Assembly: GCF_003427025.1 (NCBI RefSeq) | Contig: NZ_QVAI01000022.1 | Span: forward strand, 62,001 to 126,000 | Length of the DNA stretch: 64,000 nt | Direction: 5' to 3' | From: Jiangella endophytica | GTDB lineage: Bacteria > Actinomycetota > Actinomycetes > Jiangellales > Jiangellaceae | Shown here: piece by piece, positions 30,637 to 42,326 of the stretch | How positions within the stretch are numbered: the stretch's first letter is position 1 | Layout of the letters: every line of letters starts with the position of its first letter | Position numbers and translations under genes: made by a program | Notes under the pieces: model-generated | What the model saw: only the letters and a program-made list of their open reading frames with translations | What the model was told of the DNA's origin: nothing | Databases searched by the model: none

Positions 30637-31671
30637 TCAGCCCAGCGCGGCGGGGTTGACCAGGCCCGGCGGCCGGTCGCCGGACAGGAAGGCCGACACG
30701 GCGGCGGCGCCCAGCTCGGCGGCGCGGTGCGCGGTCTGCCGTGTCGCTCCGGCGAGATGCGGCGTCATGACCACGCGGTCCGAGCGCAGCAACGGCCAGT
30801 CCGCGGGCGGCGGCTCGGCCGGGAAGACGTCGAAGCCGGCGCCGGCCAGGTGGCCGCTGTCCAGCGCCGCCGCCAGGGCGTCGTAGTCGACGAGGCCGCC
30901 ACGGGCGGAGTTGACGAGGTAGCCGCCGGGCCGCATCGCCGCCAGCGCGGCCGCGTCGATCATCCGGGTGGTCTCGGGCGTGAGCCGCGCGTGCAGGCTG
31001 ACGACGTCGCTGCGCGACAGCAGCTCGTCGAGGCCGACCAGCGCGACCCCGTCAGGCAACGAACCGGGCTCCGCGAACGGGTCGCTGACCAGCACGTTCG
31101 CGTCGAACGCTTGCAGCATGCGGGCCACTCGCCGGCCGATCGCGCCGTACCCGACCAGCCCGACCGTCGACCCGCCCAGCTCCAGCCCGCACTCGTCGTA
31201 CGCGTAGAGGTCGCTGCGCCACTCGCCGGCCGCGACCGTGCCGTGGATGCGCGGGATGGCCCGCACAGTGCTCAGGATCAGCGTCAGCGCGTGTTCGGCG
31301 GCGGCGACGGCGTTGCGGCCCGGGGTGTTGCAGACCAGCACCCCGCGCTCGGTGCACGCGTCGACGTTGACGTTCACCGGCCCGCCGCGGGTGCACACGA
31401 CCAGCCGCAACGACGGCGCCGCGGCCAGCACGCGCGCCGTCACCGGCGCCATCTGCGTGACGATCACCTCGGCGTCGCCGGCCAGCGCGACCAGCTCGTC
31501 CTCGACGTCGGAGGCCTCGTCGACCTCGGCGACCGGGCCGAACGGGACGAGCGGCCAGGGCAGCTCGAGCGTCCGGACGTCCAGGTCCGCTCCGCCGGCG
31601 GCCGTGCGCAGCCGATCGGCCAGCAGGTCGTTGCGGACGAAGTGATCCCCGGCCAGCAGGATCCGGCTCAT
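30637..31671 (-). CDS. NAD-dependent D-2-hydroxyacid dehydrogenase family protein
   Basis: 344 aa from the ATG at 31671, which follows GGAAGGGA and overlaps the kinase stop by 4 nt. VGLVGYGAIGRRVARM is the Rossmann dinucleotide site, VNSARGGLVD holds the catalytic arginine, and VMTPHLAGAT holds the catalytic histidine. The family reduces 2-oxo acids or oxidises D-2-hydroxy acids (phosphoglycerate, glycerate, lactate). It is the last gene of a five-gene operon with two FGGY kinases, so it probably acts on a sugar-acid or glycerate-type intermediate (inference). Length and residues are normal. Confidence 0.9.
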   Translation of the reverse strand: MSRILLAGDHFVRNDLLADRLRTAAGGADLDVRTLELPWPLVPFGPVAEVDEASDVEDELVALAGDAEVIVTQMAPVTARVLAAAPSLRLVVCTRGGPVNVNVDACTERGVLVCNTPGRNAVAAAEHALTLILSTVRAIPRIHGTVAAGEWRSDLYAYDECGLELGGSTVGLVGYGAIGRRVARMLQAFDANVLVSDPFAEPGSLPDGVALVGLDELLSRSDVVSLHARLTPETTRMIDAAALAAMRPGGYLVNSARGGLVDYDALAAALDSGHLAGAGFDVFPAEPPPADWPLLRSDRVVMTPHLAGATRQTAHRAAELGAAAVSAFLSGDRPPGLVNPAALG

Positions 31672-33122
31672 GCGTTCCCTTCCGATGCGTGTGCCCAGGT
31701 GTCGCGCGCGGCGGCGACCCGGTCGAGGTAGGCGGCGAAACCGTCGTCGTAGTGCGCCCGGTGCGGGGCCGACGGCTCGACGGTGTGCGCGGGGATCGGC
31801 CAGCCGGGCGACTCGCCCCGCGCTTCCAGCGCCGACAGCACCGCGCCGTAGGCGCCGGCCTGTGGCACGTCGACGACGTCGAGCGGGCGGCCGAGCACGT
31901 CGGCGAAGAGCTGCGTCCATGCCGCGCTCTGGGCGCCGCCGCCGCAGACGGCCAGCCGCCCGGTCAGCCCGGCCGCGTCGAAACAGTGCCGGGCCGCGTA
32001 CGCCAGCCCTTCGCACAGGGCCCGGACCAGGTCGGCCGGCGACGTCGCGAGGTGCAGCCCGTCGAACCGGCCGCGGGCGGACGCCTCGACGAACGGCGCC
32101 CGCTCGCCCGACGCCGACCAGTACGGCAGCACGGTCACGCCGCGGGCGCCAGGCGGCGACTGCGCCAGCAGGTCCGCGAGCGCCGACACCGGCGCGCCGA
32201 TCAGCTGCAGCAGCCAGTCCAGCGACGCCGTGCCGACCATGGCCGGCATCGCCCGGATCCAGCGCTGCGGCTGCCACGTCGCCAGCAGCAGGCCGGCGCG
32301 GTGCGGGATCGGTCCCGGGCCCGACGTGACGACCTGGCAGGCCAGGGTGGTCCCGATGATCAGCAGGCCGTCGCCCGGCGTGACCGTGCCGCTGCCGCGG
32401 GCGGACGCGAGCAGGTCGTACGGCCCGGCGCTCACCGTCGTCCCGGCCGGCAGCCCGAGCGCGCTCGCCGCGGCGTCCGTCAGCCCGGCCGCCGGACCGC
32501 CCGGCCCGACGACCGGCGGCAGCAGCTCGCGCCGGTGCTCCAGCCCGGTGAGCCGCAGGACCTCGCCGGACCACTCGCGCGTCCGCGGGTCGAGGAACGG
32601 GTACGACGCGTCCGACACGTCGACGGCGCGGACGCCGGTGATCCGCTGGAACACCGTCCCGACGCAGTGCGTGGCGGTCGCCGCGCGGTCGAGCACGTCC
32701 GGCTCGTCGCGGTCGAGCGCGGCCAGGATCGCGGCCGACGCGCCGGGGAAGATCATGCCGCCGTTGCGGGCGAGGACGGCGTCGGCGGTGCCGTCGCGGT
32801 CCCACCGGCGGACGACGTCGGCGGCGCGGCCGTCCAGCCAGGACGCCGCCGGCCGCACCGGGACCCCGTCGGCGTCGGCCAGCCAGCAGCCGTCGCCCTG
32901 GCCGGTCATCGCGACCAGCTCCGGCGGGCCGGGCAGCTGGGTGGCGACGGCGCGGACCACGGTGGTCACGGACGCGACGACGGCCTCGGCGTCCTGCTCG
33001 ACCCGGCCGCCGGCACCGTGCGCCAGCTCCGTCGGCACGCTGTGCACGCACAGCTCGGCGCCGTCGTCGCCGTACCCGACGGCCTTGGTCAGCGTGGTGC
33101 CGATGTCGACGCCGATGTACAT
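31668..33122 (-). CDS. FGGY-family carbohydrate kinase A (xylulokinase-like)
   Basis: 484 aa. The ATG follows GAGGAGG. The N-terminal phosphate-1 loop GVDIGTTLTKAVGYGDDG and the C-terminal FGGY signature CGGGAQSAAWTQLFADVLGRPL identify an actin-fold sugar kinase; substrate-side motifs VAMTGQGDGCWL and SWLDGRAADVVRRW are nearest to xylulokinase/L-xylulokinase-type proteins by eye. It phosphorylates a sugar or polyol with ATP. It overlaps the downstream dehydrogenase gene by 4 nt and follows a DeoR gene by 15 nt. A second, clearly different FGGY kinase is encoded upstream in the same operon. Confidence 0.9.
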   Translation of the reverse strand: MYIGVDIGTTLTKAVGYGDDGAELCVHSVPTELAHGAGGRVEQDAEAVVASVTTVVRAVATQLPGPPELVAMTGQGDGCWLADADGVPVRPAASWLDGRAADVVRRWDRDGTADAVLARNGGMIFPGASAAILAALDRDEPDVLDRAATATHCVGTVFQRITGVRAVDVSDASYPFLDPRTREWSGEVLRLTGLEHRRELLPPVVGPGGPAAGLTDAAASALGLPAGTTVSAGPYDLLASARGSGTVTPGDGLLIIGTTLACQVVTSGPGPIPHRAGLLLATWQPQRWIRAMPAMVGTASLDWLLQLIGAPVSALADLLAQSPPGARGVTVLPYWSASGERAPFVEASARGRFDGLHLATSPADLVRALCEGLAYAARHCFDAAGLTGRLAVCGGGAQSAAWTQLFADVLGRPLDVVDVPQAGAYGAVLSALEARGESPGWPIPAHTVEPSAPHRAHYDDGFAAYLDRVAAARDTWAHASEGNA

Positions 33123-33137
33123 GCCGCCTCCTCGCGG

Positions 33138-33923
33138 TCAGGGGGTGTCGAGCGGTGCGACGTGGACGTTCACGCGGCGTTCGCGCAGCGCCCGGACGAC
33201 CTCGGGCGGCGTGCCGCCGTCGACCACCAGGTCGTCGAAGTCGGTGAGCGGCGCCAGCTGGTGCAGCGCGGTGCCGCCGAGCTTGGTGTGGTCCATGAGC
33301 AGCACCCTGCGCGTCGCCGAGCGCATCATCGCCCGCTTGACCAGCACGATCTCCTGCTCCTGGTGGTAGGTCAGCCCGCCCGACGCCGCCGACGTCGACG
33401 TCAGCAGCACGTCGGCGCGCAGCGACTCGATCGCCTCGATGCACGGCACGCCCAGGAAGGAGTCGTGCGTCGGGTAGTACTCGCCGCCCAGGGAGATCAG
33501 CCGGACCCGGTCGGAGCGGCTCATGGTGTTGATGACCTGCAGGAAGTTGGTGATGACGGTGAGCGGCGCCGCGTCGGCGAGCAGCTCCGCCACGCCGAGC
33601 GTCGTCGTCGAGTCGTCCAGCATGACCGCCATGCCCGGCTCGACCAGCGTGCGCGCATAGCGGGCGATGGCGGCCTTCTCGGCCCGCGCGGTGCGCAGCC
33701 GGTAGGCGACGTTGCTCTCGAACACACTGGACGGCTGCGCGCTGACGCCGCCGTGGAACTTGCGGACGACGCCCTGGCGCTCGAGCTCGTCGAGGTCGCG
33801 GTGGACGGTCATGAGGCTGACGCCGAACGTCTCGGCCAGCTGGCTCGCGGTGACCGAGCCCTCGCGCAGCACGTGATCGGCGATGCGGTCCTGGCGGGCG
33901 CTGCGCGTCGTCCGGGCGGTCAT
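33138..33923 (-). CDS. DeoR/GlpR-family regulator 1
   Basis: 261 aa. The helix-turn-helix SVTASQLAETFGVSLMTVHRDLDELERQGVVRK (~22-55) is followed by the sugar-phosphate sensing domain (MAVMLDDSTTTLGVAELLADAAPLTVITNFLQV, LISLGGEYYPTHDSFLG, RRVLLMDHTKLG). It overlaps the histidine phosphatase gene by 4 nt. The segment after the HTH, VRKFHGGVSAQPSSVFES, is almost identical in the second DeoR protein at 36266, so the two are paralogues and probably recognise related operators. Such regulators respond to phosphorylated sugars made by the local kinases. Confidence 0.93.
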   Translation of the reverse strand: MTARTTRSARQDRIADHVLREGSVTASQLAETFGVSLMTVHRDLDELERQGVVRKFHGGVSAQPSSVFESNVAYRLRTARAEKAAIARYARTLVEPGMAVMLDDSTTTLGVAELLADAAPLTVITNFLQVINTMSRSDRVRLISLGGEYYPTHDSFLGVPCIEAIESLRADVLLTSTSAASGGLTYHQEQEIVLVKRAMMRSATRRVLLMDHTKLGGTALHQLAPLTDFDDLVVDGGTPPEVVRALRERRVNVHVAPLDTP

Positions 33924-34528
33924 CGGGGCGCCTGGTTGTAGTGGTCGAGCATGACGGCGGACGGGCCGAAGCTCAGCTGCGTGGTGGCGGTCGGGTCCGG
34001 GCCGCGCAACACGGTGCGGTAGGCGCGCAGCGGGATGCCGGTGAGCCGGCAGACGACCAGGCGCATCAGGGTGTTGTGACAGACGACGAGCACGCGCTGG
34101 CCGGGGTGCCGGGCCGCGATCTCGCGCAGCGCCCGCTCCGCCCGGCCGGCGGCCGCCTCGGGGTGCTCGCCGCCGGGCAGGTGGTGGGCGACGGGGTCGC
34201 GCACGAACGCCTCGGCGGCGTCGGGGTCGGTGGTGCGCAGCTCGGCGAGCGTGCGGCCCTCGGCGTGACCGAAGTCGAGCTCGCGCAGACGTGCGTCGAC
34301 GCGGACCTCCAGCCCGGTCGCGTCGGCGACGGCGCCGGCGGTCTGGCGGGCACGGAGCAGGTCGGACGCGTAGAGGGCGTCCGGCGGATGCTCCTTCGCG
34401 TGGGCGGCGAGGACCTCGGCCTGCGCCTGGCCGACCTCGTCGATGCCGATGTCGCTGGAGCCGGTGTAGCGGTTGCCCTCGTGCCAGGGCGTGCGGCCGT
34501 GCCGGGCCAGCGTGATGGTCGTCGTCAT
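33920..34528 (-). CDS. histidine phosphatase (phosphoglycerate-mutase-like)
   Basis: 202 aa. LARHGRTPWHEGNRY carries the phospho-accepting histidine (H10), LYASDLLRARQTA and RLRELDFGHAEG the supporting arginine and acid, and VVCHNTLMRLV the second catalytic histidine. The family dephosphorylates sugar phosphates, nucleotides or cofactors. It overlaps both neighbours by 4 nt (kinase B before, DeoR after), so it is an integral member of the operon; a phosphatase between two sugar kinases suggests removal of an over-phosphorylated or toxic sugar phosphate (inference). Confidence 0.9.
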   Translation of the reverse strand: MTTTITLARHGRTPWHEGNRYTGSSDIGIDEVGQAQAEVLAAHAKEHPPDALYASDLLRARQTAGAVADATGLEVRVDARLRELDFGHAEGRTLAELRTTDPDAAEAFVRDPVAHHLPGGEHPEAAAGRAERALREIAARHPGQRVLVVCHNTLMRLVVCRLTGIPLRAYRTVLRGPDPTATTQLSFGPSAVMLDHYNQAPR

Positions 34529-36099
34529 GGGGTGTACCTGCTGCTCAGCCGCTGCGCGGCGGTCGTCGGTGTGCTGCCTGTGGACGGTGCCGCCTCGTCC
34601 GCGTCGTCGAGGTAGCCGCGCCGGGTGAGCTCGGCGACCAGCCGGTCGTAGCCTTCGGCCAGCCGTTCGTGCGCGTCGGCCCGCGGCTCGACGACCGCGC
34701 GCCGGCCGACCATGGCCGCCGCGCGCTGCGTGACCGTGACCCCGGGCGCGTCGACGCGATGCCCGGCGGCCGACGCGAGGACGGCCATGCCGAACGCGGG
34801 CTCCGGGGTCCGCGGGATGACCAGCGGCCGGCCGAGCACGTCGGCGCGCAGCTGGTTCCAGTAGTCGCTTCGCGTACCACCACCGGTGATACGGATATCA
34901 CCGTCGACGGGAGCTCCGAGCGCGGCGAGCCGCTCGAAGCACAGGCGCTCGACGTAGGCGACGCCCTGGACGACGGCGGCGTATCGCTCCGCCCGCGACG
35001 ACGTGGCGCCGAGCTCGAACCGGGTCGCGTCGGGCCGGACGAACGGGAACCGCTCGCCGCGCGCCGTCAGCGGGTAGATGACGGCGCCCGCGGGCTCGTA
35101 GCGCCGGCCGGCCGCGGCGGCGAGCGCGTCGAGGTCGTCGTCGGCGAACTCGCCGGCGACGGCGCCCGCCCCGACGTTGGAGGCGCCGCCGGGCAGCCAG
35201 CCGCCGTCGGGGTGCCGGTGGCTGTAGACCGCCCCGGCGGGATCGTCGATGAGCGTGGGCGAGACGCCCTTGAGCACCAGTGTCGTGCCGAGGACGGAGT
35301 TCCACGAGCCGGGGGTCAGCGCGCCGGCGGCGATCTGCGCCGCGCACCCGTCCGTCATGCCCGCGACGATGGGGGTGCCGGCCGCGATGCCGGTGTGCGC
35401 GGCGGCCGCGTGCGTGACGGTGCCCAGCGTGCTGCCCGGCGCGACGACCTCGGGGAGCGTCGCGGGGTCGACGCCCGCCGCGCCGAGGAGGCGCTCGTCC
35501 CAGCGGCGGCCGGCGACGTCGTAGCCGGACTTCAGCGCGTGGCTGCTGTCGGTGTCGACGCGATGCCCGACCAGTGCCGCGGCGATGACGTCGGCGCTGT
35601 GGGCGACGTAGCGGCCGGACAGCCCGGTGGTCGTGTGGTGCCGGAACAGCCAGTCGATCTTCGGCAGCGCCCACGACAGCTGCACGGCGGTGCCCGAGCC
35701 CGCGGATCCGTCCGCCTCGGCCAACCGGCGCTTCAGGCGGGCCAGTTCGTCGACCGCGCGCGCGTCGTCGTACATGAGCGCGGGGGTGAGCGGAGCGCCC
35801 CGGTCGTCGCCGAGCAGGACGGTGCCGGATGTGCTGCACACGGCGACCGCGCCGACGGGGGCCGATCGGCACGCCGGCGGCAGCTCGCCGAACGCCTGCC
35901 GCGACGCCTCGCCGACGGCCTCCCACCACTGGTGCGGATCCTGCTCGTGCCGGCGGCCGGCGTCGCTGCGCCGATGGCTGGTCAGCCTGGCGGAACCGAG
36001 CGCCAGCACCTGGCCGGTGTCGTCGGCGAGGAGGACGCGCACGCTCTGGGTCCCGAGGTCGATGCCCACCCAGATGACGTCCGCCGACCTCGGATCCAT
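34525..36099 (-). CDS. FGGY-family carbohydrate kinase B
   Basis: 524 aa from the ATG at 36099. A GTG two codons upstream (36105) sits at better distance from GAGG and may be the real start. VGIDLGTQSVRVLLADDTG is the phosphate-1 loop, AVAVCSTSGTVLLGDDRG and MYDDARAVDELARLKRRL are substrate-side segments, and TGGGTRSDYWNQLRADVLGRPL is the C-terminal FGGY signature. It is the first gene of the minus-strand operon and diverges from DeoR 2, with two GATAAC-type operator sequences just upstream of its start. Substrate not determinable by eye; ribulokinase, xylulokinase and polyol-kinase activities are all possible. Confidence 0.9.
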   Translation of the reverse strand: MDPRSADVIWVGIDLGTQSVRVLLADDTGQVLALGSARLTSHRRSDAGRRHEQDPHQWWEAVGEASRQAFGELPPACRSAPVGAVAVCSTSGTVLLGDDRGAPLTPALMYDDARAVDELARLKRRLAEADGSAGSGTAVQLSWALPKIDWLFRHHTTTGLSGRYVAHSADVIAAALVGHRVDTDSSHALKSGYDVAGRRWDERLLGAAGVDPATLPEVVAPGSTLGTVTHAAAAHTGIAAGTPIVAGMTDGCAAQIAAGALTPGSWNSVLGTTLVLKGVSPTLIDDPAGAVYSHRHPDGGWLPGGASNVGAGAVAGEFADDDLDALAAAAGRRYEPAGAVIYPLTARGERFPFVRPDATRFELGATSSRAERYAAVVQGVAYVERLCFERLAALGAPVDGDIRITGGGTRSDYWNQLRADVLGRPLVIPRTPEPAFGMAVLASAAGHRVDAPGVTVTQRAAAMVGRRAVVEPRADAHERLAEGYDRLVAELTRRGYLDDADEAAPSTGSTPTTAAQRLSSRYTP

Positions 36100-36139
36100 A
36101 TGCACCCCGTCGCCTCGATGTCTGTGCGTCCTGACGCAC

Positions 36140-36178
36140 GTTATCGCATAGATAACACAACTGACTGTTAAAGATAAC
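36140..36178. promoter_or_regulatory. paired GATAAC operator sequences between the divergent operons
   Basis: GTTATCGCATAGATAAC (36140-36156) is a perfect 6-bp palindrome with a 5-nt spacer. A related site, GTTAAAGATAAC, follows at 36167-36178. The stretch is far more AT-rich than its surroundings and lies between kinase B and DeoR 2, where both promoters must be. It is a likely DeoR binding region. Confidence 0.6.
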
Positions 36179-36265
36179 CTATCGTGCGATGCAGTGGGGC
36201 GGTTCGTCCGGCGGAGTCGTGAGGCGTGACGCCCCAACGTCCGGCCGCTGCGCCAGACTGTTCGC

Positions 36266-37075
36266 ATGACGCCGCCCACCCGTCCAGCCGACCCGCCGTC
36301 GCGGCGCTCGCTCGCCCGCGACGCGCGCCAGCAGGCCATCGTGTCGCACGTGGTCGCCCATGGGGTCGCCACGGTCAGCGAGCTGACCGAGCTGACCGGG
36401 GCGAGCGTCATGACGGTCCACCGTGACCTCGACGAACTGGCCCGGCGTGGCGTCGTGCGCAAGTTCCACGGCGGTGTGTCGGCGCAGCCGTCGACGGTGT
36501 TCGAGAGCAGTTCCGAGTACCGGGTCCGGGTGCAGGTCAAGGAGAAGGAGTCGCTGGCGACGGCCGCGCTGGGCATGATCGAGCCGGGGATGTCGATCAT
36601 GCTCGACACCTCGACGACGAACCTGTTCGTCGCCCGCCGGCTGGGCGAGCTGCGGCTCGGGCCGCTGACGGTGGTGACGAACTACCTACCCATCATGCAG
36701 GCGCTCAAGACGATGCCCGACATCCACCTGATCGGCGTCGGCGGCGACTACAACGCCACGCACGACGCCTTCCTCGGCCTGAGCGCGATCGAGGCGATCG
36801 GCGCCCTGACCACCGACATCGTCTTCCTGAGTACGTCGGCCATGACCATCTCGACCACCTATCACCAGGAACCCGAGATCGTCACCGTGAAGCGCGCCAT
36901 GATGGCCGCCGGCCGGCGGCGCGTGCTGTTGATGGACCCCACGAAGCTGAACCGCACCGCGCTGCACCGCCTCGCGCCGACGTCGGACTTCGACCAGCTG
37001 GTGGTCAACGCCGACGCGGGCGACCGCCTGCTGTCCGAGCTGGGCGAGCACGCCACCGTGGTGCCCGCGAGCTGA
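36266..37075 (+). CDS. DeoR/GlpR-family regulator 2
   Basis: 269 aa. The HTH (TVSELTELTGASVMTVHRDLDELARRGVVRK, ~37-67) is followed by the sensing domain (MSIMLDTSTTNLFVARRLG, LIGVGGDYNATHDAFLG, RRVLLMDPTKLNRTALHRL). VRKFHGGVSAQPSTVFES and many later segments match DeoR 1 at 33138, indicating duplication. It diverges from the kinase operon and stands upstream of the ABC importer genes, an ideal place to control both. Its N-terminus is ~15 residues longer than DeoR 1; the ATG at 36266 has no strong ribosome-binding site, so a later start is possible. Confidence 0.92.
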   Translation: MTPPTRPADPPSRRSLARDARQQAIVSHVVAHGVATVSELTELTGASVMTVHRDLDELARRGVVRKFHGGVSAQPSTVFESSSEYRVRVQVKEKESLATAALGMIEPGMSIMLDTSTTNLFVARRLGELRLGPLTVVTNYLPIMQALKTMPDIHLIGVGGDYNATHDAFLGLSAIEAIGALTTDIVFLSTSAMTISTTYHQEPEIVTVKRAMMAAGRRRVLLMDPTKLNRTALHRLAPTSDFDQLVVNADAGDRLLSELGEHATVVPAS

Positions 37076-37184
37076 GCCCGCCGCGCCGCCCGAACCGCCC
37101 GGAATCACCGCGGAACCGGCCCCGATCCGCCACGAATCCGGCCGGTCACGGAGTGGTCGCCGAGCGGCCGCTTGCAGTTCATCT

Positions 37185-37224
37185 CTTCGTGGAAGTTAAG
37201 TCTATCGTTCTTCGTGTTAAGTCT
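37185..37224 (+). promoter_or_regulatory. direct-repeat operator upstream of the ABC importer
   Basis: CTTCGTG occurs at 37185-37191 and 37210-37216, and GTTAAGTCT at 37195-37203 and 37216-37224. The second pair is offset by 21 bp, two helical turns. The AT-rich block lies 50-90 bp before the first permease gene and is probably a regulator site overlapping its promoter. Confidence 0.5.
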
Positions 37225-37275
37225 GTTACGGTCACTCGCACAGTCGAAGATGACCGTCACGTCGGGAGGGCGTTC

Positions 37276-38280
37276 GTGACCACCACCACCGCCGCCCGGC
37301 GGGGCCAGGACGACGCGGGCGCCGACGGCGCCGCGGCCGCCACCAGCGGCAGCGGCGGCCCCGGGTCCACGGCCCGCCGGCGCCGCCGCGGCCCGCACCA
37401 CTGGCGCCGTCGCCGCAAGGAATACTCGCTGTTCCTGCTGATGATCTCGCCGAATCTGCTGATCATCGGCACCTTCGACTACTGGCCGGTCATCTACAAC
37501 GCCTGGCTGAGCCTGACCCGCTGGAACATGATCTCCGGCGCACCGCGCTACGTGGGGCTGCAGAACTACGAGAACCTGTTCACCAGCTCGAGCTTCCACG
37601 GGATCCTGCTGAACACGCTGACGTTCAGCGCGGCGATCGTGGTCGGCAGCGTGGTGCTGGGGCTCGCGCTGGCGCTGCTGTTCGACCAGAAGCTGCGCGG
37701 CCGAGGGCTCGTCCGGACCGTGGCGTTCGCCCCGCACATCGTCAGCGGCGCCGCCGTCGCGACGTTGTGGCTGTTCATCTTCGACCCGGCGTACGGGCTG
37801 TCGCGGGTGGTGCTGGATCCGTTCGGGATCGAGTCGCCGAGATGGGTGAACGACGCCGACTGGGCCTTGATCGCGCTGGTCATCGCGTACCTGTGGAAGG
37901 GCATCGGGTTCGTCGCGATCGTCTACCTCGCCGGGCTGCAGAACCTCCCGGAGGAGCTCTACGAGGCGGCCAAGCTCGACGGCGCCGGCACGTGGACGAC
38001 GTTCCGGCGGATCACGCTGCCGCTGCTGTCGCCGGTGACGTTCTTCGTGCTGGTCACGTCGATCATCGGCACCTTCCAGGCCTACGACATGATCGCCGTC
38101 CTCACCGGGGGAGGGCCGGGCGACGCCACGACGACCCTGTCGTGGTTCGTGTACCAGCAGGGCTTCCGCGCCTCCGACGCCGGCACCGCCGCCGCGGCCG
38201 CCATGCTGCTGTTCGTCATCCTGCTCGTCGTCACGGGCCTGCAGACCAGGTTCGTCCAGCGCAAGGTGCATTACACATGA
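37276..38280 (+). CDS. ABC importer permease, MalF/UgpA type
   Basis: 334 aa from the GTG at 37276, which follows GGGAGGG; upstream in-frame codons cross the operator repeats and are excluded. A long basic cytoplasmic N-terminus (ARRRRRGPHHWRRRRKEY) precedes six membrane helices. The EAA loop contacting the ATPase is LPEELYEAAKLDGAGTWTTFRRITLP. It pairs with the MalG-type permease that overlaps it by 4 nt and with the binding protein at 39137. No ATPase gene is in the operon, so it must share a multi-sugar ATPase (MsmK/UgpC type) encoded elsewhere. Confidence 0.93.
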   Translation: MTTTTAARRGQDDAGADGAAAATSGSGGPGSTARRRRRGPHHWRRRRKEYSLFLLMISPNLLIIGTFDYWPVIYNAWLSLTRWNMISGAPRYVGLQNYENLFTSSSFHGILLNTLTFSAAIVVGSVVLGLALALLFDQKLRGRGLVRTVAFAPHIVSGAAVATLWLFIFDPAYGLSRVVLDPFGIESPRWVNDADWALIALVIAYLWKGIGFVAIVYLAGLQNLPEELYEAAKLDGAGTWTTFRRITLPLLSPVTFFVLVTSIIGTFQAYDMIAVLTGGGPGDATTTLSWFVYQQGFRASDAGTAAAAAMLLFVILLVVTGLQTRFVQRKVHYT

Positions 38281-39101
38281 CCGCCGCACGGCTGCGACGG
38301 GTGCTGCTGTACGCCGGCCTGGTGGCCGTCGGGCTGCTGTTCATCGGCCCGTTGTACTGGCTGTTCTCGTCTGCTCTCAAAGAACCGGGTGACATCTACC
38401 AGTTCCCCCCGCGCTGGCTGCCCAGCTGGCACGTCGAGAACTTCGCCGAGGCCTGGCGGGCCGCGCCGTTCGGCGACTTCTTCGTCAACTCGCTGATCGT
38501 CACCGCGGGCGGCGCCACGATCAAGCTGGTCAACGCGACGCTCACGGCGTACGCGTTCGTGTTCCTGCGCTTCCCGTACAAGAACGTGATCTTCCTGGTG
38601 ATGCTCGGCGCCCTGATGGTGCCGAACAACGTGACGCTGATCGTCAACTACATCACCGTGTCGAACCTCGGCTGGGTGAACACCTACCTGGGCCTCATCG
38701 TGCCCAGTGCCGGTTCGGTGTTCGGCATGTTCCTGCTGCGGCAGTACATGCTCACGCTGCCCGGCGACATCGTCGAGGCGGCGCGCGTCGACGGCGCGGG
38801 GCACCTGCGCATCATGTGGCAGGTCGTGCTGCCGATGTGCAAGCCGATGCTGGTCACCGTCGGGATCATCGCGATCGTCGACATGTGGAACGACTTCATC
38901 TGGCCGCTCATCGTCACCAACACCGTCGAGATGCGGACGCTGCCCATCGGACTGCTCTACCTGCGCTCCACCGAGGGCTACTCGAACTGGGGCGCGATCA
39001 TGGCCGGCACGGTGATGGTCGCACTCCCGATGCTCATCCTCTTCCTGGTCGCCCAGCGGCAGATCACCCGCGGGCTGACCGGCGGGGCCGTCAAGGGCTG
39101 A
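38277..39101 (+). CDS. ABC importer permease, MalG/UgpE type
   Basis: 274 aa. Start ATG overlaps the previous stop by 4 nt. Six membrane helices are predicted, with the EAA loop LPGDIVEAARVDGAGHLRIMWQVVLPMCKP, and segments LLFIGPLYWLFSSALKEP and WNDFIWPLIVTNTVEMRTLPIGL that are typical of the MalG/UgpE partner. It forms the membrane channel with the preceding permease and imports the ligand of the binding protein 35 bp downstream. No anomaly. Confidence 0.93.
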   Translation: MTAARLRRVLLYAGLVAVGLLFIGPLYWLFSSALKEPGDIYQFPPRWLPSWHVENFAEAWRAAPFGDFFVNSLIVTAGGATIKLVNATLTAYAFVFLRFPYKNVIFLVMLGALMVPNNVTLIVNYITVSNLGWVNTYLGLIVPSAGSVFGMFLLRQYMLTLPGDIVEAARVDGAGHLRIMWQVVLPMCKPMLVTVGIIAIVDMWNDFIWPLIVTNTVEMRTLPIGLLYLRSTEGYSNWGAIMAGTVMVALPMLILFLVAQRQITRGLTGGAVKG

Positions 39102-39136
39102 CCCCCGCCCGCGAGTCACGAAAGGACGCTCCGACC

Positions 39137-40543
39137 ATGCGACACCGCACCGTTCTGCGCCCCTCCCGACCGAGCCGGCGCGACTTCCTCTCCATGGCGG
39201 CGGCCGCCGGCGTCGCCGTACCCCTGCTCGGCTGCGCGGGCGGCGTCACCGACGACGGCGGCAGCGGCGACGACACCTCCGACCCGGGCGGCAACCTCGA
39301 CCAGGTCGACGTCAGCCCGCCGTCGCAGTACGCCGGGCGCGTCAACGTCGCCATGTGGAGCGCGATGGGCGGCGTCAACGGCGAGGCGCTCGCCGCGCTG
39401 GTGGACAAGTTCAACCAGTCGCAGGAGGACATCTACGCCGAGGTGCAGTTCCAGGGCGCGTACGCCGAGTCCGCGCCGAAGCTCACCGCGGCGCTGCGGG
39501 CCGGCGCCGTCCCGGACGTGATGATGCTCGCCGACACGTTCTGGGGCCGGTTCCTCATCAACGACGCCCTCGAGCCGCTGAACGATTACTTCGACGACGA
39601 GTTCGGCCGCGACGACTACGTCGAGGCGCTCTTCGACGAAGGGCTGGTCGGCGACGAGCTGTACTGGCTCTCGTTCGGCCGCAGCACGCCGCTGTTCTAC
39701 TACAACAAGAACGTGTTCCAGCAGATCGGCCTGCCCGACCGCGGCCCCGAGACCTGGACGGAGCTGCGCGAGTGGTCGTCGGCCATCTCCGAGCTCAGCG
39801 TCAACGGCCAGCCGCTCAAGGCGCACGCCTTCACCGGCGACGACGACTGGCAGTTCATGGCCTCGGTCTGGCAGTTCGGCGGCCGGCTGTCTGAGGGCCT
39901 GGACGTCACCATCGACTCCGGTGGCGCCGTCGACGCGGCCCGCTGGCACCAGCAGTACATCTTCGAGGACGGCTACGGGTACCTCGCGCAGGCGTCCGGC
40001 ACCGACTTCGGCACCGGCGTGGTCGCGACCACGATCACGTCGACCGGCGGGCTGCGCGGCATCTACGAGGCCTCCGCGACCGCCGGGTTCGAGGTCGGCA
40101 CCGCTTTCCTGCCGCAGGAGGTGGCCAGTGGCGTCCCGACCGGCGGCATGGGCTTCTCGCTGCTCAAAGGGGCTGCACAGGAGCGCAAGGATGCCGCGTT
40201 CCAGCTGCTGAAGTTCCTCGGGCAGCCGGAGAACGCCGCCGAGTGGACGCTCGCGACCGGCTACCTGCCGATCGTCAAGGCGTCGATGGACGTCCCCGAA
40301 CTGGCGCAGACGCTGGCCAGCGACCCGAACTTCAACGTCGCCGTCGAGCAGCTCCCGGAGGCGCAGGGCAGCGACGCGATCCGTTCCTACCTGCCCAACG
40401 GCACCGACATCATCATCAGCGGCCTGCAGCGCATCTACAGCGACGGCAGCGAGGATCCGCAGGACGTGTTCGACGAGGTCGCGGAGCAGCTGCGGCAGGG
40501 CGTCGAGGACATCCGGCCCGGCTACGAGAAGTACTTCGGCTGA
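39137..40543 (+). CDS. ABC importer substrate-binding lipoprotein, UgpB-like
   Basis: 468 aa. The ATG follows GAAAGGA. Twin-arginine signal SRRDFLSMAAAAGVA and lipobox LLGC make it a Tat-exported lipoprotein. The mature part is a family-1 binding protein; PTGGMGFSLLKGA and LLKFLGQPENAAEW...TGYLPIVKASMD correspond to the C-terminal lobe pattern of UgpB, the sn-glycerol-3-phosphate/glycerophosphodiester-binding protein. The next gene encodes a UgpQ-like phosphodiesterase, which supports a glycerophosphodiester ligand. Residues that bind the phosphate were not checked by alignment, so another sugar or polyol remains possible. Confidence 0.85.
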   Translation: MRHRTVLRPSRPSRRDFLSMAAAAGVAVPLLGCAGGVTDDGGSGDDTSDPGGNLDQVDVSPPSQYAGRVNVAMWSAMGGVNGEALAALVDKFNQSQEDIYAEVQFQGAYAESAPKLTAALRAGAVPDVMMLADTFWGRFLINDALEPLNDYFDDEFGRDDYVEALFDEGLVGDELYWLSFGRSTPLFYYNKNVFQQIGLPDRGPETWTELREWSSAISELSVNGQPLKAHAFTGDDDWQFMASVWQFGGRLSEGLDVTIDSGGAVDAARWHQQYIFEDGYGYLAQASGTDFGTGVVATTITSTGGLRGIYEASATAGFEVGTAFLPQEVASGVPTGGMGFSLLKGAAQERKDAAFQLLKFLGQPENAAEWTLATGYLPIVKASMDVPELAQTLASDPNFNVAVEQLPEAQGSDAIRSYLPNGTDIIISGLQRIYSDGSEDPQDVFDEVAEQLRQGVEDIRPGYEKYFG

Positions 40544-41250
40544 TGGACCTGAGCGTGTGCGCGCACCGCGGCTCGCCGTCGGTGGTGCCGGAGAACACCA
40601 TCGGGTCGTTCCTGCAAGCGGTCGACGAGGGCGCCGACGAGGTCGAGCTGGACCTGCGGCTGTCGGCCGACGGACGGCTGGTCGTCATGCACGACGCCAC
40701 CGTCGACCGGACGACGGACGGCACCGGCGCCGTCGCGGAGCTGACGTTGCGTGAGCTCCAGGCGCTCGACGCCGGCGGCGGCGCGCGGATCCCGTCCTTC
40801 GAGGAGGTGCTGGACGGCGTCGGCCCGCGGCTACGCCTGCAGGTGGAGATCAAGGCGCCGGAAGCGGTCGGCCCGCTCGCCGAACTGCTGCGCGACCGCC
40901 CCGGCGACCTCGCCCGCATCTCGCCGTGCTGCTTCGACCCGGACGTCGTCGCCGAGCTGGTCCGGCTGTTCCCGGACGCGCCGGTCGGGCTGATCGCGTC
41001 CGGCGGGTCGGCCGAGTCGCTCGACCGGGCCGTCGAGCTGGGTGCGTCGCGCGTGCTGTTCGGCTGGTCCGGCACCGACCGCGCGCTGGTCGAGAGGGCG
41101 CAGTCGCATGGCCTGGAGTTCAGCGTCTGGCTGGTCAACACGCCGGAGCAGCTTCGCGACGCTCAGGCGCTCGGCGTCGACGGGTTCACGACGGACGAGA
41201 CGGCGGCGATCGTGGAAGAGCTCGTGCGGGCGGAGGAGGCGGCATCATGA
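40543..41250 (+). CDS. glycerophosphodiester phosphodiesterase, UgpQ-like
   Basis: 235 aa. Its ATG overlaps the binding-protein stop by one base. The active-site set is visible: H8 and R9 in AHRGSPSVVPENT, E35 and D37 in VELDLR, and H50 in VVMHDATVDRTT; EVEIKAP and GVDGFTTDE complete the TIM barrel. It hydrolyses glycerophosphodiesters to glycerol 3-phosphate and an alcohol. There is no signal peptide, so like UgpQ it acts on the imported substrate. Its place directly behind a UgpB-like importer is strong context for that role. Confidence 0.93.
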   Translation: MDLSVCAHRGSPSVVPENTIGSFLQAVDEGADEVELDLRLSADGRLVVMHDATVDRTTDGTGAVAELTLRELQALDAGGGARIPSFEEVLDGVGPRLRLQVEIKAPEAVGPLAELLRDRPGDLARISPCCFDPDVVAELVRLFPDAPVGLIASGGSAESLDRAVELGASRVLFGWSGTDRALVERAQSHGLEFSVWLVNTPEQLRDAQALGVDGFTTDETAAIVEELVRAEEAAS

Positions 41251-42326
41251 CGGAACTCTCGCGGCGGACGTTCGTCCGGCTCGGCGGTGCGGCGGCGGGC
41301 GCCGGAGTGCTGGCGGCGACGGGGTCGACGACAGCGACGGCGGCAGCGGCGGCCGGCCGGGGCGGGGCGCCGGCGCGGACGCCGTCGTTCGGGCTGACCG
41401 AGCCGGCCGAGCCGTTCTTCGTCAACGTCGGCCTGCACGACCAGCGGACCATCATGCAGTCGTTCGCCGTCGACAGCACCGGCCGGCATGTGTACGTCGT
41501 GCAGATCACCCAGGGCGGCACCATCCTCCCCGGCGACGCGCCCGGTGACGAGGAGTACGCCCGCCGCGCCGCCCGTGGCGACCTCACGTTGTCGAAGCTG
41601 GACCTCGCCGGGAACCTGCTCGGGCACATGTACCTCAAGCGGTTCGGGCACGGCGTCGCGATCGGCGTCGAGCGGACCGGCCGCGACGTGCACCTGTGGA
41701 CCGAGGTCGACGCCGTCACCGAAGGCGCCAGCGGGTGGGGGACCCGGCTGCTGCGGTTCCCGTTCGCCGACGGTGCGGTCATCGACGCCGACGCGACGCC
41801 GGGCCTGCAGCGGCGCGAGTTGCTGCCCGGCGTCGACCGCACCACCTGCAACGTCGACCCCGTCCACCGGACGCTGGTCATGCGGTACCGCCGCGACGGC
41901 GCGTTCCGGTTCGCGCTCTTCGACCTCGACGACGTGCGCCGCGAGCGGCCCGCGTACGAGCCGATCGCCGACGTCGCCCAGCCGGACGTGCTCAGCGGCG
42001 GGCCGGTGTTCCAGGGTTACGCGACGTACGGGCGTGACCTCTACCTCTTCGACGGGCAGATCTACAGCGCGACGAACCCGCCGGAGGGGAAGGGCAACGC
42101 GCACCTGACGCGGGTCGACTGGCGGACCGGCGGCGTCGAGGAGCGCGTGCGCACGATCGACGGGCACGAGCTGCACCGCCGCGAGCCCGAGGGCCTCGGC
42201 GTCTGGCTCGAGACGCCTGGGCGACGGCCGACGGCGCGGCTGGGGTTCGCCTTCGGGACCAGCGTCACCGCCGACCCCGACGACGACCGGCTCTGCACGA
42301 TCCTGACGAAGTCGCTCGGCGGGTAG
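41247..42326 (+). CDS. Tat-exported TagC-like beta-propeller protein
   Basis: 359 aa. ATG overlaps the phosphodiesterase stop by 4 nt. Signal SRRTFVRLGGAAAGAGVLAATG is a Tat signal. The body, with AVDSTGRHVYVVQI, LTLSKLDLAGNLLGHMYLKRFGHGVAIGVE, DVHLWTEVD and CNVDPVHRTLVMRYR, matches actinobacterial proteins annotated as teichoic acid biosynthesis protein C, a phage receptor-binding-like propeller fold. Catalytic residues are not obvious; it may bind or cleave glycerol-phosphate polymers. Translational coupling to a UgpQ-like gene and importer suggests it works outside the cell on the polymer that yields the imported fragment (inference). Confidence 0.75.
   Translation: MTELSRRTFVRLGGAAAGAGVLAATGSTTATAAAAAGRGGAPARTPSFGLTEPAEPFFVNVGLHDQRTIMQSFAVDSTGRHVYVVQITQGGTILPGDAPGDEEYARRAARGDLTLSKLDLAGNLLGHMYLKRFGHGVAIGVERTGRDVHLWTEVDAVTEGASGWGTRLLRFPFADGAVIDADATPGLQRRELLPGVDRTTCNVDPVHRTLVMRYRRDGAFRFALFDLDDVRRERPAYEPIADVAQPDVLSGGPVFQGYATYGRDLYLFDGQIYSATNPPEGKGNAHLTRVDWRTGGVEERVRTIDGHELHRREPEGLGVWLETPGRRPTARLGFAFGTSVTADPDDDRLCTILTKSLGG

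Follow-up and report, generated by a model that had tools for sequence, protein, structure and literature searches.

The subject of this analysis is a 64,000-nucleotide stretch of the genome of Jiangella endophytica (contig NZ_QVAI01000022.1, positions 62,001 to 126,000), called the window below, and within it a locus of two divergent operons that is a new variant of Ugp-type scavenging. The locus joins an importer and a glycerophosphodiester phosphodiesterase (GDPD) with an exported five-bladed propeller and a cassette of sugar kinases. The favoured explanation as a whole, an inducible two-operon system for scavenging glycerophosphodiesters in which the propeller serves as a polymer binder, has in our judgement about an even chance of being right. 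A search of the open-access literature, whose coverage leaves out most subscription papers, returned no description of such a locus.

Six genes, all on the plus strand, occupy positions 36266–42326, as confirmed by reading of the sequence and by Pfam. An earlier sequence-only reading had described them as running in one direction, which is borne out, and its family assignments agree with Pfam. It had also claimed overlaps at most junctions: three of the five do overlap (UgpA/UgpE by 4 bp, the binding protein and GDPD by 1 bp, GDPD and the propeller by 4 bp), but there are gaps between UgpE and the binding protein (35 bp) and between DeoR1 and UgpA (200 bp), the latter holding a conserved block of its own. 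The extent it gave has to be revised, since the locus continues upstream into a divergent minus-strand operon that had been missed (30637–36105; order FGGY1, HisP, DeoR2, FGGY2, HADH; 4-bp overlaps at three of four junctions). This operon belongs to the locus, of which the six-gene cluster is half. The features are as follows.

30637–31671, minus strand: HADH, D-isomer-specific 2-hydroxyacid dehydrogenase (NCBIfam PGDH-type matches, the best at 238 bits, under the cut-off of every model listed; position conserved)
31668–33122, minus strand: FGGY2, xylulokinase/gluconokinase-like sugar kinase (Pfam FGGY_N/FGGY_C; TIGR01312 at 211 bits, cut-off 380; nearest solved chain 5vm1)
33138–33923, minus strand: DeoR2, DeoR-family regulator (DeoRC, 142 bits)
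33920–34528, minus strand: HisP, histidine phosphatase branch 1 (His_Phos_1, 181 bits)
34525–36105, minus strand: FGGY1, sugar kinase, first gene of the divergent operon (Pfam FGGY_N/FGGY_C; start at GTG 36105 or ATG 36099)
36140–36180, no strand: candidate operator block between the divergent operons (pattern match; related block seen by eye in Jiangella stretches)
36266–37075, plus strand: DeoR1, DeoR-family regulator (DeoRC, 139 bits)
37190–37232, no strand: conserved block upstream of ugpA with repeated GTTAAGTCT (by eye)
37276–38280, plus strand: UgpA-like permease (BPD_transp_1, 91 bits; best NCBIfam model UgpA; start GTG behind GGGAGG, chosen by the analyst)
38277–39101, plus strand: UgpE-like permease (BPD_transp_1, 62 bits; best NCBIfam model UgpE)
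39137–40543, plus strand: UgpB-like Tat lipoprotein, predicted glycerophosphodiester binder (SBP_bac_8, 120 bits; relative of Mycobacterium tuberculosis UgpB; pocket residues)
40543–41250, plus strand: GDPD, UgpQ-like, predicted cytosolic (PF03009, 135 bits; motifs)
41247–42326, plus strand: Tat-exported five-bladed propeller, relative of phage receptor-binding proteins (PF21311, Phage_RBD_prop, 49 bits)

Within the limits of their contigs, all seven other Jiangella genomes that bear the propeller show this same arrangement of genes, at 67–97% protein identity (in one of them, L049, the contig stops inside DeoR2), and the cluster is therefore not a chance arrangement. The genes, the residues of the binding pocket, the export signals, the kinship of the propeller with phage receptor proteins and the conserved linkage can all be read from the sequence, and they are presented in the following sections.

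Importer, binding pocket and phosphodiesterase

The binding protein carries a twin-arginine (Tat) signal, SRRDF, and a lipobox, LLGC, both read from the sequence. Its best solved relatives are chains of M. tuberculosis UgpB (6r1b/4mfi, E 5e-61 to 5e-55), and E. coli UgpB matches at 8e-27. The scores against the NCBIfam equivalog models lie below the cut-offs for UgpA (181 of 335 bits), UgpE (164 of 297) and UgpB (104 of 411). Eight positions of the M. tuberculosis UgpB pocket were mapped onto the window protein. All eight are identical there (Y109, D133, S183, W238, S302, G337, Y376 and R416), one Trp of the clamp being included in the test. The same eight residues are present in all 13 orthologues of Jiangella and Phytoactinopolyspora, window included. 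As a control, 29 of the 88 other SBP_bac_8 matches of the genome (89 with the window's own) were scored; the best of them, L144, holds five of the eight and the rest at most three. A plain sugar importer, considered as a candidate, is contradicted by this test.

M. tuberculosis UgpB has been solved with glycerophosphocholine and is said to be able to bind other glycerophosphodiesters (PMC8603345). For Phaeobacter UgpB, a 2025 paper (PMC12718374) describes two Tyr and two Ser that contact the phosphate, Gly, Arg and Glu that contact the glycerol hydroxyls, and two Trp that form a clamp; it reports that the Tyr and Ser positions are invariant in the glycerophosphocholine binder, in contrast to glucose binders. 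The kinds of residue in the window pocket match the phosphate and glycerol ligands given for UgpB in that paper.

There is no UgpC ATPase among the genes of the operon, and five MalK-type ATPases (matches to the MalK OB-fold family) are encoded elsewhere in the genome, as expected if the ATPase is shared. Sharing of one ATPase among several importers, of the MsiK type, is a familiar arrangement. The genome as a whole has 89 SBP_bac_8 matches against 5 MalK OB-fold matches, and many importers may share few ATPases. The binding protein L144 mentioned above (G000:C67:161347-162285) adjoins a GDPD match (C67:160870-161070), which suggests a second glycerophosphodiester importer.

The GDPD of the window scores 135 bits against PF03009 (gathering cut-off 23.6), has HRG, ELDL and MHD motifs in common with 9f49, and stays below the UgpQ equivalog cut-off (NCBIfam PRK09454, 103 against 264 bits). 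It has no evident signal peptide and is therefore predicted to act in the cytosol. The sequence-only reading had proposed uptake and cleavage of glycerophosphodiesters; this is now backed by a residue-level pocket test with controls, in addition to GDPD, and import followed by cytosolic cleavage is likely on these sequence grounds. The nearest solved relatives of GDPD include the GP-PDE domains of a protein labelled ORF58, and phage tail and structural families of PHROG match it as well, so that the folds of GDPD and of the propeller both occur on phage tails.

The closest known counterparts are the Ugp systems represented by M. tuberculosis UgpB and by ugp-glpQ of Corynebacterium glutamicum. 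With them the locus shares CUT1 permeases modelled best by UgpA and UgpE, a Tat-type lipoprotein, the eight tested pocket residues and a GDPD beside the importer. It differs from them in its sub-equivalog scores, the lack of an operon ATPase, the DeoR genes, the propeller, the divergent kinase cassette and an altered head-group side of the pocket. According to a review (PMC7866108), the C. glutamicum ugp operon is linked to glpQ and responds to phosphate limitation, and Streptomyces coelicolor has no ugp cluster. Starting at the free end, Bacillus subtilis GlpQ breaks down wall teichoic acid that is unsubstituted, so glycerophosphodiesterases acting on teichoic-acid polymers are known; the abstract on this enzyme mentions no tie to an importer and a propeller (PMC7086022).

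The propeller, its phage relatives and its gene neighbourhoods

The propeller protein bears a twin-arginine signal, SRRTFVR (read from the sequence), and matches PF21311 at 49.3 bits (gathering cut-off 23.7), as do 27 of the 29 aligned members of its family at E 0.01; L070, whose start could not be set, was left out of alignment A1. When the family profile was compared with all solved chains, five specific sequences were retrieved, all of them phage receptor-binding proteins (two from P68 and those of phi11 and 80alpha, all three phages of Staphylococcus aureus, and that of phage NF5), at E 1.8e-26 to 1e-10, with the next match at 0.11. An AlphaFold model built from eight sequences (predicted template-modelling score 0.70) leads to the same kind of protein. 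In Foldseek the top seven matches are phi11, 80alpha and NF5 chains (E 1e-13 to 4e-11) and other propellers begin at 1.3e-6, while in VIA the phage proteins reach Z 23.4, 23.2, 22.8, 22.8 and 18.7, and the next fold 15.7. Among viral predicted structures the best match is the neck appendage protein of Bacillus phage GA-1 (E 2e-9).

Eight polar residues are kept in at least 90% of the propeller family (Q71, Q86, H135, E153, R213, Q256, E313 and E315). By eye, seven of these, together with W151, are also kept in the alignments with P68, NF5 and phi11, and E153 is not. The likeness to the phage receptor-binding propellers thus extends from the fold (Z 23.4–18.7) to conserved Q, GHG, W, R, QG and E-x-E elements. 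The window protein differs from them in being a stand-alone, Tat-exported cell protein, too short for the stem and tower, with a nearly invariant W-x-E in its family where the phage proteins differ and with a metabolic gene context.

Phage phi11 needs N-acetylglucosamine (GlcNAc) on wall teichoic acid, and the cavity of its propeller could hold GlcNAc; soaking failed, and the ligand site was modelled, not crystallised (PMC4901313). The 80alpha paper repeats this site as suggested (PMC7048315). A homologous tail fibre of a Bacillus phage carries the depositor annotation 'tail fiber, WTA interaction'. The sequence-only reading had called the propeller TagC-like. The B. subtilis genome used as a control has a PF21311 match, in a gene that the result does not name; the open-access search found no relevant paper linking TagC to the propeller or to a phage tail, and tagC was not found in PMC2885750. 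The sequence-only reading had suggested that the propeller binds or degrades a glycerol-phosphate polymer. Homology to phage receptor-binding proteins favours binding, and a role as binder of a teichoic-acid-like polymer is plausible, if slightly short of even odds; degradation is without direct support and seems unlikely.

Within the order Jiangellales, propeller and importer occur together. Thirteen of its 22 genomes have a strong propeller match (E <=1e-160), the UgpB-type protein is found in exactly these genomes, and the other nine have neither (absence of the latter meaning none at E 1e-60; weak propeller matches at a second place in G006 and in G015, E 3e-4 and 9e-4, were dropped). The distance from propeller to GDPD is at most 7.4 kb in each of the 13, with ugp-type genes alongside, and in the eight Jiangella genomes with a propeller, that of the window among them, GDPD comes directly before it in the same orientation. 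In the Phytoactinopolyspora locus L055, the space between propeller and GDPD holds a ROK regulator and a GH36 alpha-galactosidase; the same pair is found on one side of the propeller in L055 and L057–L059 (scanned in L055), several of which have, by eye, sugar isomerase- or oxidoreductase-like genes on the other side.

Beyond the order, the propeller is found at E 1e-5 in 27 of the 393 genomes sampled from the class, the best three to five candidates per genome having been scored, as in the other class-wide searches. Of 17 propeller loci outside the order, L073 in genome G217 is the only one with relatives of GDPD, DeoR, the solute-binding protein (SBP) or UgpA; another, L066, has an FGGY gene (31%) and a 2-hydroxyacid dehydrogenase gene (42%) 5–9 kb from the propeller. 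The DeoR and UgpA profiles included L073 and the FGGY profile both L073 and L066, which inflates the E-values there, although a comparison that used no profile recovers these genes too; neither locus contributed to the GDPD and SBP profiles. The predicted co-occurrence of propeller and ugp-type genes therefore holds in 13 of 13 genomes within the order, but outside it only one of 17 loci has a GDPD or DeoR gene nearby, and its importer lacks the UgpB pocket. Two annotated actinomycete copies of the propeller are labelled 'Tat pathway signal sequence domain protein' and 'hypothetical protein', and on a plasmid of Streptomyces sp. NBC_01727 (L211, 7962–16271) a Tat-type propeller gene has behind it, in the same orientation, a gene of polymorphic toxin type with a HINT domain.

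The G217 locus encodes on one strand an alpha-L-rhamnosidase, an SBP, two permeases, a metallophosphoesterase (TIGR03767-type, 247 bits, model cut-off 331), the exported PF21311 protein, a DeoR regulator (53% identical to DeoR1) and a GDPD (39% to that of the window). A cassette HADH-FGGY2-FGGY1-HisP lies on the other strand, 10.4 kb from the propeller start. The signal of the G217 propeller, TRKEF, is a borderline twin-arginine motif, and the protein has N at the position of E153. A 36-row tree places it with two Bacillus phage-type propellers (100/100) and outside the group of the order (100/100); the tree is midpoint-rooted, the end branches measure 0.66–1.15 and two of the three rows in the G217 group have an odd composition. 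Since the G217 protein groups with a phage-type branch, a propeller of another branch is found there in a like setting. A prophage remnant was also considered and rejected, as the identified neighbours of the propeller, both here and in G217, include no tail gene.

The kinase cassette and the candidate operators

FGGY1 and FGGY2 both have the two FGGY domains. The nearest solved relative of FGGY1 is 5htn (E 6.5e-48), the SePSK kinase, an enzyme active on D-ribulose. This relationship would fit ribitol-derived carbon, but it is only a lead to the substrate, and an assignment of kinase specificity from sequence was set aside for that reason.

Relatives of FGGY1 at E 1e-60 occur in 41 of the 393 class genomes. 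The neighbourhoods surveyed (26 loci, stretches of 14–20 kb) were those of all 25 FGGY1 genomes outside the family and of G001. HisP and FGGY2 are beside FGGY1 in 26 of 26, HADH in 23 and DeoR in 21; all five genes, the same as in the window, are present in 19. This two-FGGY/HisP/HADH/DeoR cassette (L245–L264, L270–L275, window 30637–36105) thus recurs across actinomycetes with differing importers, of CUT2 type at six loci, CUT1 with MalK-type ATPases, as in L249, and MFS in L257; the CUT typing rests on Pfam scans of the L254 CUT2 and L249 CUT1 genes and, at the other CUT loci, on grouping with these by similarity. The window differs from the loci examined, which have CUT2, other CUT1 or MFS importers and only sometimes an adjoining GDPD, in having a UgpB-type importer.

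A GDPD is near the cassette in five of the 25 genomes outside the family, G316 being counted as without one (its stretch stops about 227 bases past FGGY2). Chance would give about one in 25 loci of 20 kb, as estimated from 15 GDPD places, some in one gene, in the 7.85 Mb of the J. endophytica genome. Four of the five (G300, G347, G076 and G228, with GDPD directly behind FGGY2) belong to one genus, g24, which we guess is Streptomyces, and may represent one event; the fifth is G217. Considered with the varied importers, this proportion suggests that the cassette is a pathway for a sugar or polyol, into which a glycerophosphodiester sometimes feeds. Two Jiangella genomes (G011 and G013) are without DeoR1, the UgpA and UgpE orthologues, the UgpB-type protein and the propeller, and have GDPD directly beside FGGY1 and the rest of the cassette. 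By this pattern, GDPD and the cassette form one unit and the propeller goes with the uptake step. The divergent cassette suggests that the alcohol released by GDPD is a sugar or polyol and is itself consumed, and its use by the cassette is likely, to judge from gene content and neighbourhood.

With respect to regulation, the block at 37190–37232 with its repeated GTTAAGTCT is near-identical, by eye, in all eight Jiangella stretches and in one from Phytoactinopolyspora (L139). The pattern GTTAANNNTATC, with one mismatch allowed, has two matches in the window (36167–36178 and 37195–37206), both intergenic at the two promoters, and 5 of 100 shuffles also reach two. The degenerate operator pattern GTTANNNNATAAC gave no matches. 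The shared blocks fit joint control by the DeoR pair, as candidate operators.

Proposed model and alternatives

We infer the substrate, the direction of flow, the regulation and the role of the propeller to be as follows. The propeller and the UgpB-type lipoprotein would work outside the membrane, the former holding a phosphodiester glycopolymer near the cell, most likely a teichoic-acid-like one from other bacteria. The lipoprotein would bind a glycerophosphodiester and hand it over to the UgpA/UgpE-like channel, with a shared ATPase of MalK type, encoded elsewhere, as the energy source. In the cytosol, GDPD would cleave the diester; of the two products, glycerol 3-phosphate and an alcohol, the latter would be a sugar or polyol and would enter central metabolism through the divergent cassette, and one or both DeoR proteins would be repressors sensing a phosphorylated intermediate. 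Teichoic acid is a plausible source of the diester. PF04464 (CDP-glycerol glycerophosphotransferase) is absent from all 22 genomes of the order, two of which are less than 90% complete, so recycling of the host's own classical wall teichoic acid is unlikely and was set aside; recycling of another polymer type is conceivable. The suggestion of the sequence-only reading that the polymer comes from other bacteria fits this absence, but the teichoic-acid source is itself only plausible.

Several observations weigh against this model. Residue 205 of M. tuberculosis UgpB aligns to a gap in the window protein, and the head-group side of the pocket therefore differs. The confidence of the propeller model is modest (mean predicted local distance difference test score 62.8). 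In all five Phytoactinopolyspora genomes the propeller is encoded on the strand opposite to GDPD, at a distance of 186 to 7358 bases, and hence not in its operon, and 16 of the 17 propeller loci outside the order have no relative of GDPD, SBP, DeoR or UgpA within their 20-kb stretches. The G217 arrangement is that of one genome, with no second case among the 60 genomes compared from the genus or in a sample of 150 from the family, and its SBP holds three of the eight pocket residues. Related cassettes use CUT2, MFS or CUT1 importers, the latter with binding proteins that have none to three of the pocket residues, so the cassette itself is not tied to glycerophosphodiesters, and G011 and G013 carry another CUT1 permease pair (33–34%) 5–6 kb away. 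Finally, by analogy with the plainer ugp-glpQ cluster of C. glutamicum, phosphate supply from phospholipids would be a simpler purpose.

This last point leads to the strongest alternative, in which glycerophosphodiesters from decayed membranes (glycerophosphocholine, -inositol or -glycerol) serve as a source of carbon and phosphate and the propeller, only co-transcribed, has a separate role. The nearest solved relative of the binding protein, a glycerophosphocholine binder, speaks for it, as do the C. glutamicum cluster for such diesters (PMC7866108), the opposite strand of the Phytoactinopolyspora propeller and the lack of such neighbours at most propeller genes elsewhere. Nevertheless, choline or ethanolamine would suit the kinase cassette less well than a sugar or polyol, no genome of the order has the propeller without the importer or the reverse, and in G217 DeoR, GDPD and phosphoesterase genes adjoin a propeller from a different branch; we regard this alternative as possible but rather doubtful. 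An enzymatic propeller, which would cleave or trim the polymer extracellularly and so supply the diester for import, is considerably less probable. Five-bladed propellers are common among carbohydrate enzymes (GH43 and GH62 appear in the VIA rows), and of the eight conserved polar residues E153 alone differs in the aligned phage proteins; yet the other seven are shared with P68, NF5 and phi11, the phi11 and 80alpha proteins are described as binders (PMC4901313, PMC7048315), and N replaces E153 in G217. Least credible of all is a domesticated phage adhesin or decoy that has no metabolic role and stands in the Jiangella operon by neutral accident. The 16 loci with no GDPD, SBP, DeoR or UgpA relative nearby and the Streptomyces plasmid copy that precedes a toxin gene would suit it, but the linkage kept in 13 of 13 propeller-carrying genomes of the order, the 4-bp overlap with GDPD in the window and the similar setting of a distant propeller in G217 argue against it.

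The scavenging model with a polymer-binding propeller can be carried further. Actinobacteria may have recruited a phage teichoic-acid receptor propeller at least twice as a secreted capture protein for a pathway that feeds on phosphodiester polymers; the teichoic acid in the walls of other Gram-positive bacteria would then supply them with both glycerol phosphate and a sugar or polyol as fuel. This extension is speculative and we give it low credence. The open-access literature yielded no paper joining FGGY with glycerophosphodiester and DeoR, and no title on teichoic-acid scavenging by actinomycetes; on Jiangella and teichoic acid it offered a single, broad taxonomy paper. As it stands, the locus places a propeller in a defined pathway of uptake and catabolism whose substrates can be tested. 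If the model is true, it would provide a natural binder of teichoic acid, show wall polymers used as food, and offer a setting in which the substrate of the kinase cassette could be found.

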